64,000 nt of DNA, taken from assembly GCA_026418695.1 (NCBI GenBank), contig JAOAAU010000086.1:1-64000 (forward strand), written 5' to 3'. This DNA comes from Clostridia bacterium (GTDB taxonomy: Bacteria > Bacillota > Clostridia > Acetivibrionales > JAFADI01). Numbering within the stretch: the stretch's first letter is position 1; every line of letters starts with the position of its first letter. This document shows, one piece after another, positions 19,378 through 54,536 of this stretch. A program made the translations under genes and the position numbers. The notes beneath the pieces were generated by a model, which saw only the letters and a program-made list of their open reading frames with translations, did not search any database and had not been told where the DNA came from.

Positions 19378-19632
19378 AAAAAAACCTCTCGCCTGACTAA
19401 ATGTCAGGGACGAGAGGATTCTATCCCGCGGTGCCACCCTAATAGATGCAACAAGCATCCTGCTTAAATCCATTAACGCCGGAACTGCGCCCAAACCTAC
19501 CTGTTTTTCAACGCTCGGCTTGGAAACTTCGGGATGTTCTTTCCTCAACCTTTTCCTAAAAGCACTTCCAGTCATGGCGCTTTCTCCCTGAAGGCAGTAC
19601 TGAGTACTTCTTCCCATCATCGCTTTTAAAAT
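19378..19632 (-). promoter_or_regulatory. T-box riboswitch leader of aspS
   Basis: The conserved T-box sequence AGGGTGGCACCGCG (minus strand) is at 19427-19440. It is followed by a terminator whose arms CCTCTCGTCCCTGAC and GTCAGGCGAGAGG end in seven T residues at 19378-19384. Stem I is recognisable: AGTA (19605-19608) and CTCA (19601-19604) lie below an AG-bulge CAGGGAG (19584-19590), and TGAG then GAAAGAACATCCC follow on the returning strand. TGGC in the T-box should pair with a tRNA ending GCCA, so discriminator G73, which fits Asp, Asn or Glu tRNA and not His. The best specifier candidate is AAC at 19536-19538. Uncharged tRNA would stop termination and raise aspS expression. Confidence 0.92.
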
Positions 19633-35915: not shown

Positions 35916-35932
35916 GTGAAACCTCCTATTTC

Positions 35933-36125
35933 TAGCTTCCGAAGTTAGCTGACGGGTTCGGGTAATAGGATCACCCCTACCTCACTAGATGTTAGAAGTG
36001 GGAAGTGAGATGCGAGAAATAAGAATAAATTTCTTATATCAAACAAATCAAATCTGTTCTAGCCTCTAGATCGGATTAACCCCATGTGTTTGGTTCCTCC
36101 GTACTCCTTTTGCAAGGAGATTCAG
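35933..36125 (-). promoter_or_regulatory. c-di-AMP (ydaO-yuaA) riboswitch
   Basis: On the minus strand the leader contains GGAGGAACC, ATGGGGTTAATCC, GTAGGGGTGATCC and CCGAACCCGTCAGCTAAC in the order and spacing of the ydaO-yuaA aptamer, about 190 nt in all. Binding of c-di-AMP usually lowers expression of wall hydrolases and K+ or osmolyte transporters. The aptamer ends only about 13 bases before the AGGAGG of the SH3-NlpC/P60 gene, leaving no room for a separate terminator. The 280 bp from 36126 to 36408 hold only AT-rich promoter-type sequence. Confidence 0.93.
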
Positions 36126-36408
36126 CTATGAATTTTGTCATGTTACTGATATTATATCCATCCACTTTTGGTTTGTCAAACCTGAAAAGGCATATTTTCC
36201 TAAGTTTTTTGGTACAAGACCCTTAAAAATCAGTTTTTTCGCTAATTTACCTATTTTTATTCCCGATCCCATCATTTCCTAGGATAGGTTTTGGCAGGTT
36301 CTTTTTCTGCATTTGATATACAGTATATTACAATTATATCATGTTCACGAAGAAATTTACATAATATTTAGTACTTTTTTTGACTTTTGTTTCCTGGCTA
36401 TGTTTTGC

Positions 36409-44123: not shown

Positions 44124-44275
44124 AAAATCAAAAAAGCTTACCTGCGTGCAGGTAAGCTTTAAAAATACAATTATTATCAAAATATATTCTCTGCTTCCCT
44201 ACGGTGGTATTAGCCACATCAGGTTCAAAGGGTCAAGATTTCTCTTTCTCAGCCGTTAGGCACCCCTAGCATCCG
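44124..44275 (-). promoter_or_regulatory. TPP (THI-box) riboswitch with terminator
   Basis: On the minus strand the aptamer (about 44195-44275) has the conserved CTGAGA and ACCCTTTGAACCTGAT blocks and ends with ACCACCGTAGGGAA. It is followed by a terminator at 44124-44160 with arms AAAGCTTACCTGC and GCAGGTAAGCTTT and a T run. Thiamine diphosphate binding should favour the terminator and shut off the thiSGHFEC operon. Confidence 0.97.
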
Positions 44276-44292
44276 TATTCATTTATAGACCT

Positions 44293-50609: not shown

Positions 50610-52403
50610 CTAACAGATTTGTTTATCTTCCAGGAATTTGTACTGTGAAGTAAAGAGCTTATGATACAGCCCTTTCAGCCCCATCAATTCCTGGTGACTT
50701 CCGGTCTCTGTAACACGCCCCTGGTCGATCACCATAATCCGGTCTGCGTTTTGAATGGTTGAAAGACGATGCGCTATCACAAAAGAGGTTCTTCCTTTCA
50801 AAAGCTTTTGAATCCCTGACTGCACCAGTCTTTCTGTATGTGTATCAATACTCGCTGTAGCCTCATCCAGGATCAGAATTCTCGGATCTGCCAGCAATGC
50901 TCTGGCAAAAGCAATTAATTGTCTTTGACCAACAGACAGCCTGGATCCGCGTTCATTTACATCCGTATCATATCCATTGAGCAGCTTTGTAATAAACTCA
51001 TGGGCATGAACTGCTTTGGCAGCTTCTAAAATCTCGCCGTCTGTTGCATCCAGTTTCCCATACCGGATGTTATCTTTAATAGAACCCGAGAAAAGGAAGG
51101 TATCCTGCAGCATAATCCCCATCTGGGATCTTAAACTCTCCAATTTTACTTTTGAGATATTATAACCATCAATGAGAACCTCCCCCTTTTGATGATCATA
51201 GAACCTGCTGATCAGATTCACTACCGTCGTCTTCCCCACCCCGGTTGGCCCAACCAGTGCAATTGTTTCACCGGGTTTTACCTGAAAACTGACATCCTTT
51301 AGAACCGGACTATTCTCATCGTATCCGAAGGTCACATGTTTAAAGGTTACAGCACCTTTGATTTTGGGAAGCAGGATTGCCTCCTCCGCATCCTTAATAT
51401 CCGGTTCAATGTCCATGATCTCAAATATTCTCTCAGCCCCTGAGATGTTGGTAACAAGGGCATTATAAAAGTTGCTGATGTTCATGATAGGCTGCCAGAA
51501 CATGGAGATATATCCAATGAAGGCGATCATGAGACCAATGGTAATAGATCCTGTCTCTAGCAACCGCAAACCATACCAGAAAACAACAATCGTTCCTACT
51601 CCCCACGACATTTCTACCAGCGGCCAGAACATGTCATTCAGACGGACAGCCCGCAAAAATGCATTCTGCTGTTCTTTCAGAAGTCTCAGGAAAGTCTCAC
51701 TGGTGCTGTTCTCAGCGGTATAGCTTTGAACAACTCGAATTCCGGAAAAATCTTCGTGTACAAACGCATTGATATTGGAGGTCTTCTTTCTGTAAATCTG
51801 CCAGCGTCTTCTTGATACCACCTGAATAACAAACAGAGATGCCAGCAGGATCGGCAGTGCAATGAAGGATACTGCCGCAAGCCGGTAATTCATACACAGC
51901 ATGATGACCGCAACGGTGATAATCTTGATAAAATCCGGAATTAAGCTGGTAATGCTGTTTGTAAACAAATCATTCAACGAATTCACATCACCGATAATCC
52001 TCGCCAGGATTTTTCCCACAGGACGGTTGTCAAAAAATGCAAAGGATAGCTTTTGTATATGGTCATATAAGTTCTGCCGGATCGTTAGAAGAATCTTATT
52101 GGTGACTCCCGCCATGATTCTGATTCTGTATCTGGCACACAGCATGCCTATCAGATTAATTATGATCATGAATCCACCAAGTAAAATCAACCCTTTAACA
52201 TCCCCAAGCTTTATAAACCGGTCAATGCCCAGCTTCAAAAAGTAGGGATTCATTAGTTCTATTGCTATGACCCCACCCATCAGTCCAAGGGTTTGCATCA
52301 CTTGAACCTTATAAGGCCCAAGATAGGAAAAAAGACGAATGATTGTTTTAATATTCAGTGTTTCCTTTAAAGTTTCATCTTCTTTGAAACTATTGATCGG
52401 CAC
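50610..52403 (-). CDS. ABC exporter half-transporter, subunit 2 (canonical Walker B, altered signature)
   Basis: 597 residues from a GTG start that overlaps the upstream stop (TAGTG), with GGAGGTGG just before; the frame is open 17 codons further but without support. Six membrane spans (about 25-310) precede a nucleotide-binding domain with Walker A GPTGVGKTT, Walker B ILILDEATAS with catalytic Glu, and the H-loop in IAHRLS. The signature is RLSVGQRQL, with Val replacing the first Gly of LSGGQ. Together with the partner upstream it forms a heterodimer with one degenerate ATP site, as in BmrCD, LmrCD or TM287/288 multidrug exporters. Confidence 0.93.
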   Translation of the reverse strand: MPINSFKEDETLKETLNIKTIIRLFSYLGPYKVQVMQTLGLMGGVIAIELMNPYFLKLGIDRFIKLGDVKGLILLGGFMIIINLIGMLCARYRIRIMAGVTNKILLTIRQNLYDHIQKLSFAFFDNRPVGKILARIIGDVNSLNDLFTNSITSLIPDFIKIITVAVIMLCMNYRLAAVSFIALPILLASLFVIQVVSRRRWQIYRKKTSNINAFVHEDFSGIRVVQSYTAENSTSETFLRLLKEQQNAFLRAVRLNDMFWPLVEMSWGVGTIVVFWYGLRLLETGSITIGLMIAFIGYISMFWQPIMNISNFYNALVTNISGAERIFEIMDIEPDIKDAEEAILLPKIKGAVTFKHVTFGYDENSPVLKDVSFQVKPGETIALVGPTGVGKTTVVNLISRFYDHQKGEVLIDGYNISKVKLESLRSQMGIMLQDTFLFSGSIKDNIRYGKLDATDGEILEAAKAVHAHEFITKLLNGYDTDVNERGSRLSVGQRQLIAFARALLADPRILILDEATASIDTHTERLVQSGIQKLLKGRTSFVIAHRLSTIQNADRIMVIDQGRVTETGSHQELMGLKGLYHKLFTSQYKFLEDKQIC

Positions 52404-54139
52404 TATACCACCTCCTCTTCTGAAAGGAGCATCATATCTCCAAATTGCTCGCAAAACGTATCATAGTATCTTCCTTTTAACTCCAAGAGGAATTCGTGAT
52501 TACCTCTTTCAACGATTTCACCGTTTTCAAGAATCAGAATCTCGTCAGCATTCTTCACCGCAGATATTCTATGGGCAATAATGAATTTTGTGATACCGTT
52601 TCTATGCTCCAATGCCTTTTGAATGTCATACTCGGTTTCCATATCCAATGCTGAAGTTGCATCATCAAGAATGAGTATCTTACTTCCCTTTAACAGCGCT
52701 CTGGCAATTGATATTCTCTGTTTTTGCCCTCCTGAAAGACCAATCCCTCTTTCTCCAATAATAGTCTTATATCCTTTTTGCATTTTTGAAACAAACTCTT
52801 CTACATTTGAATCCTTAACCGCCGAATGAAACTCACTTTTATGAACCTTCCCAACACCTAATTTGATGTTATCTTCAATAGTGTCGGAGAACAGAAAGGT
52901 ATCCTGCATTACAACAGAGATGTTCTCTCGAAGTTTCTTTAAATCCAGCTTTTTTATATCCATGCCGTCTACAAGAATTTTTCCGCTGGAAGTATCATAG
53001 TACCTTCCAATAAGGTTTGCCAGTGTTGATTTTCCCGAACCGGTCATCCCCATTATGCCAATCGTCGCGCCTGGCTTTGCATTGAGATTGATATTCTTCA
53101 AAACCGGAATTTCTCCGTATTGGAAGGATACATTCTCAAATACTACATGGCCAGTAAGTTTTTCAGGAACGTTTGGTTCCTCACAGTTCTCAATTTCAGC
53201 ATGCTCTTCGAAGATTTTATCGATCTTCTTAAGGGATGCAAGACATTGTGCCAGAACGTTGGTGAGCCACCCAATCATTCTCATCGGCCAAATCAGTGCA
53301 TAAATGTAGGTACTAAAGGCCACCAGGGTCCCTATTGAAATATCCCCGCCAATGGTCAGGATCCCTCCGGCTGTTGTGACCAACACCACAACAATGTTTG
53401 AAAGCAGTTCAATTAACGGATGATACTTTGCAAACACTTCTGCCTGCTCTATATTAAGATCATGGCTTACCTTGTTCTGCAGAAGAAACTTCTGTATCTC
53501 GTACCGTTCACGTCCGAAGGCTTTGACAAGTCTTACTCCGGCAATATTTTCCTGTGCAGTTGTATTTAAAACAGCCCTTTGGTCGCTGATCTTTCCAAAA
53601 GACTCTCCTACCTTCTTCTCCAGCTGCACAGCGATATAAGCAATAAAGGGCATAGTCAATAAACAAACGGATGCCAACTTCCAATTGAGGAAAAACAGGA
53701 TCACAGAAGCGGCAATAAAGGTAATCCCCATTTCGGATATTAACATGATCCCGAATGCTGTAGCATGCAATACATTTTCCGTATCCTCTTTCATCCTGGA
53801 CATCAGTTCACCGGTATTGGTCCGATCAAAAAATGAAAAGGACAGCCTCTGAATATGGTCAAACATACTTTTTCGTAAACTTACAATAATATCGGAGCTT
53901 GAATAATCAAACATATACTCCTTTAAATACCCCAAAAAGGCTCTGCTTATTGTAATTCCGGCTAATCCGCCCAAAAGCCACTTGAACAGGTTCAGGTTTC
54001 CCTTTTGAATAACATCGTCGACAATGATTTTCATTAAATAGGGACTGAACATATCCAGCGTGATGCTTGCTATCATGGCTGAAACGCCAATGACGTAACA
54101 CCATAGATTCTTTTTCATAAATTGCAACAGTCGTTTCAA
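52403..54139 (-). CDS. ABC exporter half-transporter, subunit 1 (degenerate Walker B)
   Basis: About 578 residues. The best start is a TTG six bases after GAGGTG; a GTG three codons earlier overlaps the ribosome site itself. Six spans (about 10-290) precede a nucleotide-binding domain with Walker A GMTGSGKST, a normal LSGGQKQR signature and IAHRIS. Walker B reads ILILDDATS, with Asp (about residue 493) in place of the catalytic Glu. It should therefore contribute the non-hydrolytic half-site of a heterodimeric drug or peptide exporter with the gene that follows. Expression is likely controlled by the leader ORF and terminators upstream. Confidence 0.93.
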   Translation of the reverse strand: MKRLLQFMKKNLWCYVIGVSAMIASITLDMFSPYLMKIIVDDVIQKGNLNLFKWLLGGLAGITISRAFLGYLKEYMFDYSSSDIIVSLRKSMFDHIQRLSFSFFDRTNTGELMSRMKEDTENVLHATAFGIMLISEMGITFIAASVILFFLNWKLASVCLLTMPFIAYIAVQLEKKVGESFGKISDQRAVLNTTAQENIAGVRLVKAFGRERYEIQKFLLQNKVSHDLNIEQAEVFAKYHPLIELLSNIVVVLVTTAGGILTIGGDISIGTLVAFSTYIYALIWPMRMIGWLTNVLAQCLASLKKIDKIFEEHAEIENCEEPNVPEKLTGHVVFENVSFQYGEIPVLKNINLNAKPGATIGIMGMTGSGKSTLANLIGRYYDTSSGKILVDGMDIKKLDLKKLRENISVVMQDTFLFSDTIEDNIKLGVGKVHKSEFHSAVKDSNVEEFVSKMQKGYKTIIGERGIGLSGGQKQRISIARALLKGSKILILDDATSALDMETEYDIQKALEHRNGITKFIIAHRISAVKNADEILILENGEIVERGNHEFLLELKGRYYDTFCEQFGDMMLLSEEEVV

Positions 54140-54231: not shown

Positions 54232-54263
54232 GAAAAAGGCCATGGAAGCTGTGCTCCATGGCC
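54232..54263 (-). terminator. Terminator 2 of the exporter leader
   Basis: On the minus strand GGCCATGGA and TCCATGGCC (with one extra T) form a nine-pair stem around GCACAGC and are followed by five T residues. The 5' arm GGCCATGG (54256-54263) is also perfectly complementary to the 3' arm of terminator 1, so the two hairpins can exclude each other. Confidence 0.8.
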
Positions 54264-54265
54264 TG

Positions 54266-54305
54266 AAAAAACACAAAGGCCATGGGGTCTGACAACCCCA
54301 CGGCC
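54266..54305 (-). terminator. Terminator 1 of the exporter leader
   Basis: On the minus strand GGCCGTGGGG and CCCCATGGCC pair (one G-U) around TTGTCAGA, followed by TTTGTGTTTTTT. The stem begins 15 bases after the leader ORF stop. Its 5' arm can alternatively pair with leader codons 34-37 (54346-54356), an apparent antiterminator. Confidence 0.85.
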
Positions 54306-54320
54306 TGAAACTTTTAAAGT

Positions 54321-54455
54321 TTATGGCATACCATTTAAAAGCGAGGCAGGGTTATCAGAACATAAATTGAAGCCGTTAAAATAGCCAGCAAAGCCATACT
54401 GATTACAGCTCTGGATATTCACTTGATGAATCATATAAGCATTCATAGTCTTCAT
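54321..54455 (-). CDS. Leader peptide of the ABC exporter operon
   Basis: 44 codons starting at an ATG with a strong AAGGAGG seven bases upstream, 46 bases into the predicted transcript. The peptide begins MKTMNAYMIHQVNIQSCNQY and ends LLNGMP. It is polar, with two Cys and no span or basic tail. The in-frame ORF extends upstream to another ATG, but without a ribosome site. Its stop lies 15 bases before terminator 1, as in translation-dependent attenuators. By analogy with BmrB of Bacillus subtilis it probably acts through ribosome stalling. A bacteriocin-like precursor is a less likely alternative. Confidence 0.78.
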   Translation of the reverse strand: MKTMNAYMIHQVNIQSCNQYGFAGYFNGFNLCSDNPASLLNGMP

Positions 54456-54507
54456 TTTTCCTACCTCCTTCTTTAAAAATTTGTTCATCAATATTTTATT
54501 CCTTCTC

Positions 54508-54536
54508 ATAGTAAATTATTCCATTTACATTGTCAA
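54508..54536 (-). promoter_or_regulatory. Promoter of the exporter leader
   Basis: Minus-strand TTGACA and TACTAT are separated by exactly 17 bases. The predicted start (about 54501) leaves a 46-base untranslated region before the leader peptide ATG. Confidence 0.78.

Follow-up and report, generated by a model that had tools for sequence, protein, structure and literature searches.

The exporter genes on the minus strand of the window, i.e. the whole stretch of 64,000 nucleotides analysed here, are preceded by a putative ribosome-mediated transcription attenuator in which six RNA segments can form five helices that exclude one another (1:2, 2:3, 3:4, 4:5 and 5:6). We assign this reading a probability of about three in four. 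Somewhat less firmly, but still as the favoured account, the element is taken as a relay attenuator of Clostridia-wide distribution: a single decision by the ribosome would pass through the five alternating helices and open or close two serial terminators together, with helix 4:5 disabling the second terminator and locking the first antiterminator. Comparative and thermodynamic evidence establishes the anatomy and conservation of the element, covariation of 2:3, 3:4, 4:5 and 5:6, the near-invariance of 1:2 and the exclusive linkage to the exporter. The Shine-Dalgarno sequence is numbered as segment 1, the leader codons as segment 2, the arms of terminator 1 (T1) as segments 3 and 4, and the arms of terminator 2 (T2) as segments 5 and 6. 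The features of the locus are:

54508..54536, minus strand: match to the promoter pattern, TTGACA-17 nt-TACTAT
54460..54468, minus strand: segment 1, extended Shine-Dalgarno sequence GGAGGTAGG, complementary to segment 2
54321..54455, minus strand: leader ORF MKTMNAYMIHQVNIQSCNQYGFAGYFNGFNLCSDNPASLLNGMP, 44 codons, stop included; ATG at 54455, TAA at 54323-54321
54343..54356, minus strand: segment 2, GATAACCCTGCCTC, leader codons ~34-38, with two alternative partners
54277..54306, minus strand: T1 stem-loop, helix 3:4, with TTTGTGTTTTTT after the stem and a U-rich tail to ~54266
54301-54291, minus strand: segment 3, GTGGGGTTGTC, 5' arm of T1
54285-54277, minus strand: segment 4, CCATGGCCT, 3' arm of T1
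54237..54264, minus strand: T2 stem-loop, helix 5:6, followed by TTTTT, U tail to ~54232
54264-54256, minus strand: segment 5, AGGCCATGG, 5' arm of T2, alternative partner of segment 4
52403..54139, minus strand: exporter half 1, type IV ABC exporter with degenerate Walker B (DD), TTG start at 54139
50610..52403, minus strand: exporter half 2, type IV ABC exporter with canonical Walker B and degenerate signature LSVGQ

All elements lie where the initial annotation of this DNA had placed them, with coordinates right to within a base or two. A short, translated-looking ORF with a ribosome site stands directly 5' of an intrinsic terminator: T1 is located 14 nt past the leader stop codon, and T2 a dozen bases past T1. 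Both are the two best terminator matches within 8 kb (10 terminator-like sites found, 5.3 expected). Promoter-like sites number 24 against 19.3 expected, so that the promoter match alone proves little; among orthologues, a promoter-like site at most 140 nt from the leader start occurs in 75 of 78, the shuffled controls giving 9. Folding of the leader region is better than that of 100 of 100 shuffles (z -4.3). Known cis-elements on the same strand of the window are a T-box (19403-19629), a c-di-AMP riboswitch (35919-36137) and a TPP riboswitch (44179-44277).

Within segment 2, positions 54350-54343 pair with segment 1, and positions 54356-54346 (GATAACCCTGC) with segment 3. The latter pairing, helix 2:3, comprises 11 bp (GATAACCCTGC/GTGGGGTTGTC) and reproduces exactly the match between leader codons 34-37 and the T1 5' arm described earlier; the perfect complementarity claimed between the freed T1 3' arm and the T2 5' arm, helix 4:5, is likewise exact (CCATGGCC/GGCCATGG). 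Helix 1:2, absent from the initial annotation, joins GAGGTAGG with CCTACCTC, or GGCAGG with CCTGCC, and 99% of cells are paired. It is an anti-antiterminator that also closes the ribosome site of the leader, and with 2:3, 3:4, 4:5 and 5:6 it brings the chain of mutually exclusive helices to five.

The start codon of exporter half 1 has a context conserved in orthologues, and the probable start of half 2, a GTG at 52403, overlaps the 3' end of half 1. The translations contain ILILDDATSALD in ORF 1 and LSVGQ in ORF 2, versus ILILDEATASID and LSGGQ. Judged by these Walker B and signature motifs, the predicted product is a heterodimeric ABC exporter with one degenerate ATP site, as had been proposed.

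As the leader peptide is not conserved, with only weak, non-homologous matches in a leader protein search within the order, orthologues were linked through the exporter. In total, 97 upstream regions were collected by exporter homology alone, the leader not being used; they come from the order to which the window belongs, the order of genome G150 and two other members of the class. The automatic scan recovers a leader ORF with T1 in 79 of the 97 regions, 61 of these 79 with a usable T2. Hand inspection adds nine leaders (L023, L047, L083, L085, L086, L097, L108, L135 and L138), among which L023 is cut by a contig end, L047 is without recognisable terminators, and L083, L085, L086 and L097 have the leader further upstream. 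An exporter kept without its leader was the case that the initial annotation had set against its own proposal; it does occur, since nine regions (L013, L024, L026, L094, L101, L104, L114, L143 and L151) are without the element as a unit, yet the leader is retained in 88 of 97.

In the common plan, GGAGG(T/C)AGG precedes an ORF in which 15-46 codons lead up to segment 2, of the type GATA(A/G)CCCT(A/G)(C/T)CTC; the stop codon comes 11-31 nt after this segment and is followed by T1 and T2. In all 227 genomes of the order of G150, a leader pattern has 29 matches and a reversed control pattern none. Directly 5' of the exporter are 28 of these; the remaining one lies on a separate contig, in a genome whose exporter gene is at a contig end, and all 29 fit linkage to this exporter only. 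More distant homologues in Bacilli (Listeria and Enterococcus, with 40-42% identical exporters) possess no such leader; next to the Enterococcus exporter stands a gene for an AraC-type regulator. A covariance model of T1 and T2 of the order (R1) recovered from 391 class genomes only same-order members and two borderline chance matches, its reach being limited because clostridial members use different sequences. A DNA pattern scan of GTDB returned only close relatives and chance matches.

Compensatory variants of helix 2:3 include, among others, GATAACCC/GGGTTATC, GATAGCCC/GGGCTATC, GATAGTCC/GGACTATC, ATTAGCCC/GGGCTAAT, GGCAGCCC/GGGCTGCT and CTCAGCC/GGCTGAG. When duplex energies of own and swapped partners are compared, with one genome per genus, z reaches -8.0 for 2:3, -6.3 for 4:5 and -4.3 for 1:2, with -9.7 and -10.7 for the terminator stems 3:4 and 5:6; 3:6 (-1.9) and 4:6 (-1.8) are weak, and the controls 3:5, 2:4 and 2:5 are near 0. 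Pairs were also counted against shuffles in a 46-row block alignment, with blocks anchored on each terminator's own motif and 2:3 and 4:5 not fitted; owing to this anchoring, the counts of 3:4 and 5:6 lean to pairing. Cells changed on both sides amount to 44 in 2:3 (11.8 shuffled, 0/500) and 31 in 4:5 (13.2 shuffled, 0/500), besides 4 versus 0.9 in 1:2 and 14 versus 8.2 in 3:6.

Since relatedness can mimic covariation, every column was in addition simulated independently along a tree of 56 exporter proteins (1000 simulations; anchors set by hand in rows L021, L089 and L152). Both-side changes exceed the simulated number in 2:3 (55 vs 12.2, 0/1000), 4:5 (37 vs 11.4, 1/1000), 3:4 (50 vs 9.0, 0/1000) and 5:6 (51 vs 12.4, 0/1000), with 18 vs 8.8 (68/1000) in the mirror pairing 3:6 and 6 vs 1.5 (65/1000) in 1:2. 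The covariation of 1:2 is weak because this helix is nearly invariant; in percentage paired it reaches 17/1000, and 4:5 a modest 23/1000. The antiterminator 2:3 is thus borne out as had been claimed, and the compensatory changes in orthologous leaders that had been named as a check are in favour of both 2:3 and 4:5. Helix 2:3 is exclusive with the terminator, overlaps the leader ORF and changes in a compensatory manner, as expected of an attenuator. A constitutive, leaky double terminator, in which regulation is missing and the complementarities arose by chance, can hardly account for 2:3 covariation beyond phylogeny or for the class-wide conservation.

The role of T2 admits a simpler explanation, which we consider unlikely: an ordinary three-helix attenuator (1:2, 2:3 and 3:4) acting at T1, with T2 a T1-derived fail-safe or basal-level terminator whose complementarity to the T1 3' arm is functionless. 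T1 and T2 resemble each other above chance on both arms (z ~3.3), so that part of the 4:5 complementarity could stem from homogenisation, 3:6 has a weak excess too, and some genera are without a detectable T2. Moreover, at least six 4:5 pairs form in 92% of foldings with T2 5' arms of other genera, against 98% with their own, because most arms share CCATGG; folding does not discriminate swapped arms, and the case for the relay therefore rests on covariation. A copy, however, predicts equal coupling of 4:5 and 3:6, whereas 4:5 is the more strongly coupled (z -6.3 vs -1.9; 1/1000 vs 68/1000 on the tree), which argues that T2 is more than a T1 copy. A strong T2 acting independently would also block the induced transcript.

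For the window, the part of the leader 3' of the ribosome was folded in a thermodynamic model, with the ribosome set at a series of codon positions. While T1 is incomplete, a ribosome at codons 5-28 leaves 2:3 with a probability of 1.0, and full 2:3 is impossible from codon 30; when T1 is complete, 2:3 retains 0.18-0.68 over the same codons, and T1 forms with certainty from codon 30. In this model the ribosome position decides the fold, with the switch between codons 28 and 30, in agreement with the earlier claim that a stall before about codon 28 exposes the switch codons. The complete leader without a ribosome folds into 1:2, T1 and T2 with a probability of 1.0. A further claim, that a ribosome at the stop masks these codons, stands as to its outcome, T1 being certain from codon 30, but not as to its geometry: segment 2 ends about 20-22 nt before the leader stop (22 nt for the codons in question), and by usual ribosome dimensions a ribosome terminating there would probably occupy the RNA just 3' of segment 2 and not segment 2 itself. 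Helix 2:3 would therefore have to form around the ribosome, and 1:2 could form behind it.

Once segment 5 has emerged, 2:3 with 4:5 (-42.9 kcal/mol) is better than 3:4 (-39.3 kcal/mol) by 3.6 kcal/mol, so that 4:5 also shields 2:3 from the T1 3' arm. With T2 complete, 5:6 is favoured over 4:5 at equilibrium by 1-4 kcal/mol in the window, varying with ribosome position, and T1 is favoured over 2:3 at most ribosome positions. The relay must therefore win kinetically, and reaching the ON state is a matter of kinetics and pausing. The opening of both terminators by one event, as the initial annotation had it, is accordingly favoured by 4:5 covariation, but not by the equilibrium energy of a completed T2.

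The proposed relay attenuator would operate as follows. With no ribosome on the leader, 1:2, T1 and T2 would form and transcription would stop. During fast translation, the ribosome would run through segment 2 to the stop codon while the polymerase makes segments 3-6; 2:3 would be blocked, and both terminators would act. A slow or stalled ribosome at roughly codons 1-28 would cover or have passed segment 1 and leave segment 2 free to pair with segment 3, so that segment 4 remains unpaired. Segment 4 would then pair with the emerging segment 5, preventing T2 and being itself kept from reinvading 2:3, and the polymerase would pass both terminators and the exporter be made. The speed of translation is the presumable signal, and this kinetic order the presumable course of events. 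Slow translation of codons 1-28 would be the expected effect of ribosome-targeting antibiotics, and such drugs are suggested as inducers by analogy with the bmrB leader of Bacillus subtilis, which controls bmrCD in this manner: it responds to lincomycin, erythromycin and chloramphenicol, and leader translation is required, as demonstrated by experiment (PMC4191407). Helix 1:2 implies that an untranslated leader should stay off, in agreement with this need for leader translation in induction.

The conserved core of segment 2 is read in three frames of the leader (60, 10 and 3 cases), and the leader peptides are not alignable across genera; RNA, not peptide, is therefore what is conserved. General slowing of translation would be the simplest signal. 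Two peptide-based readings were considered. Arrest by a nascent peptide in response to a specific drug, as in erm-type leaders, could draw on a loose NGxxxPK-like motif, located 5-10 codons 5' of segment 2 and seen by eye in some clades, and is improbable in the light of the unalignable peptides and the three frames. Still a little less probable is an amino-acid-starvation attenuator with the ribosome stalling at codons of one scarce amino acid: the short leader peptides are somewhat rich in Asn and Phe (1.5x and 1.7x the base-composition expectation), but neither a codon run nor a common regulatory codon of the trp/his/ilv type occurs across 34 genera, and the element precedes a multidrug-type exporter rather than an amino-acid gene. 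Peptide-motif and amino-acid readings of the leader are thus unsupported, given the three frames and the missing regulatory codon.

In trp/his-type ribosome-mediated attenuators, the position of the ribosome decides between alternating 1:2, 2:3 and 3:4 helices. The present element shares this alternation; unlike that type, it extends it by 4:5 and 5:6 to a second terminator, possesses no regulatory codons and uses the Shine-Dalgarno sequence as segment 1. With bmrB it has in common a leader ORF 5' of a heterodimeric, multidrug-type ABC exporter with one predicted degenerate ATP site. In bmrB the terminator is part of the leader coding region, and bmrCD is in addition under growth-phase control by AbrB (PMC4191407). 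In contrast, T1 is here past the stop codon, so that no terminator lies in the leader coding sequence; T1 is followed by a second terminator coupled to it, and the Shine-Dalgarno sequence itself serves as segment 1. The element is therefore related to bmrB in role and, by terminator position, not a member of it.

The tandem attenuators of Salmonella mgtCBR likewise combine multiple attenuation elements in a single leader, but are described with two ORFs (PMC3641672), whereas here a shared segment links a single ORF to both terminators. Predicted attenuators 5' of ABC transporters, the ABC-leaders of Naville and Gautheret, include one for a multidrug exporter of lactobacilli; unlike the present element, they comprise, in the section devoted to them, no clostridial member, leader ORF or second terminator (PMC2965389). 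Rfam 15 covariance models have no match at gathering score at the element, only chance-level matches, and the open-access article texts covered yielded no description of the element or of a two-terminator relay, in line with the initial annotation. Provisionally, the element is thus a variant of ribosome-mediated attenuation for which no earlier description was found.

The element represents a conserved putative regulator of a multidrug-type exporter in many clostridial genera, and by analogy may predict the drug class that induces these exporters. If the relay holds, it extends the classical 1:2/2:3/3:4 logic to coupled serial terminators and accounts for the inducibility of a leader that carries two strong terminators; the two terminators would give very low leakage with inducibility kept. 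The natural covariant variants are a ready set for co-transcriptional folding tests.

Several orthologues deviate from the common plan. In L101, L104, L114 and L151 the leader ORF is gone, and a single T2-type hairpin terminator stays just 5' of the exporter. In L013, within the 500 bases 5' of the exporter start, an apparent IS200-type transposase ORF with palindromic ends stands directly before the exporter in place of the leader, which suggests loss of attenuation through insertion. L014 and L019 (one genus) possess the T1 loop GTGAAGG(A/G)TTTACC and an (A)AATCCTACC-like segment 2, hence an antiterminator register unlike the rest of the family. L117, L135 and L136 contain a tandem pair of leader ORFs, comparable in number to those of mgtCBR as outlined above. 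Each ORF has a GGAGGTAG site of its own and a segment-2-like end, and two or three terminators follow the pair; these are apparently duplicated attenuators. In L083, L085, L086, L087 and L097 (one genus), the stretch between T2 and the exporter contains 41-codon ORFs (one or two, paralogous) that have good ribosome sites and are of the type FFKxRxxxSRYRRKPLYLxN.
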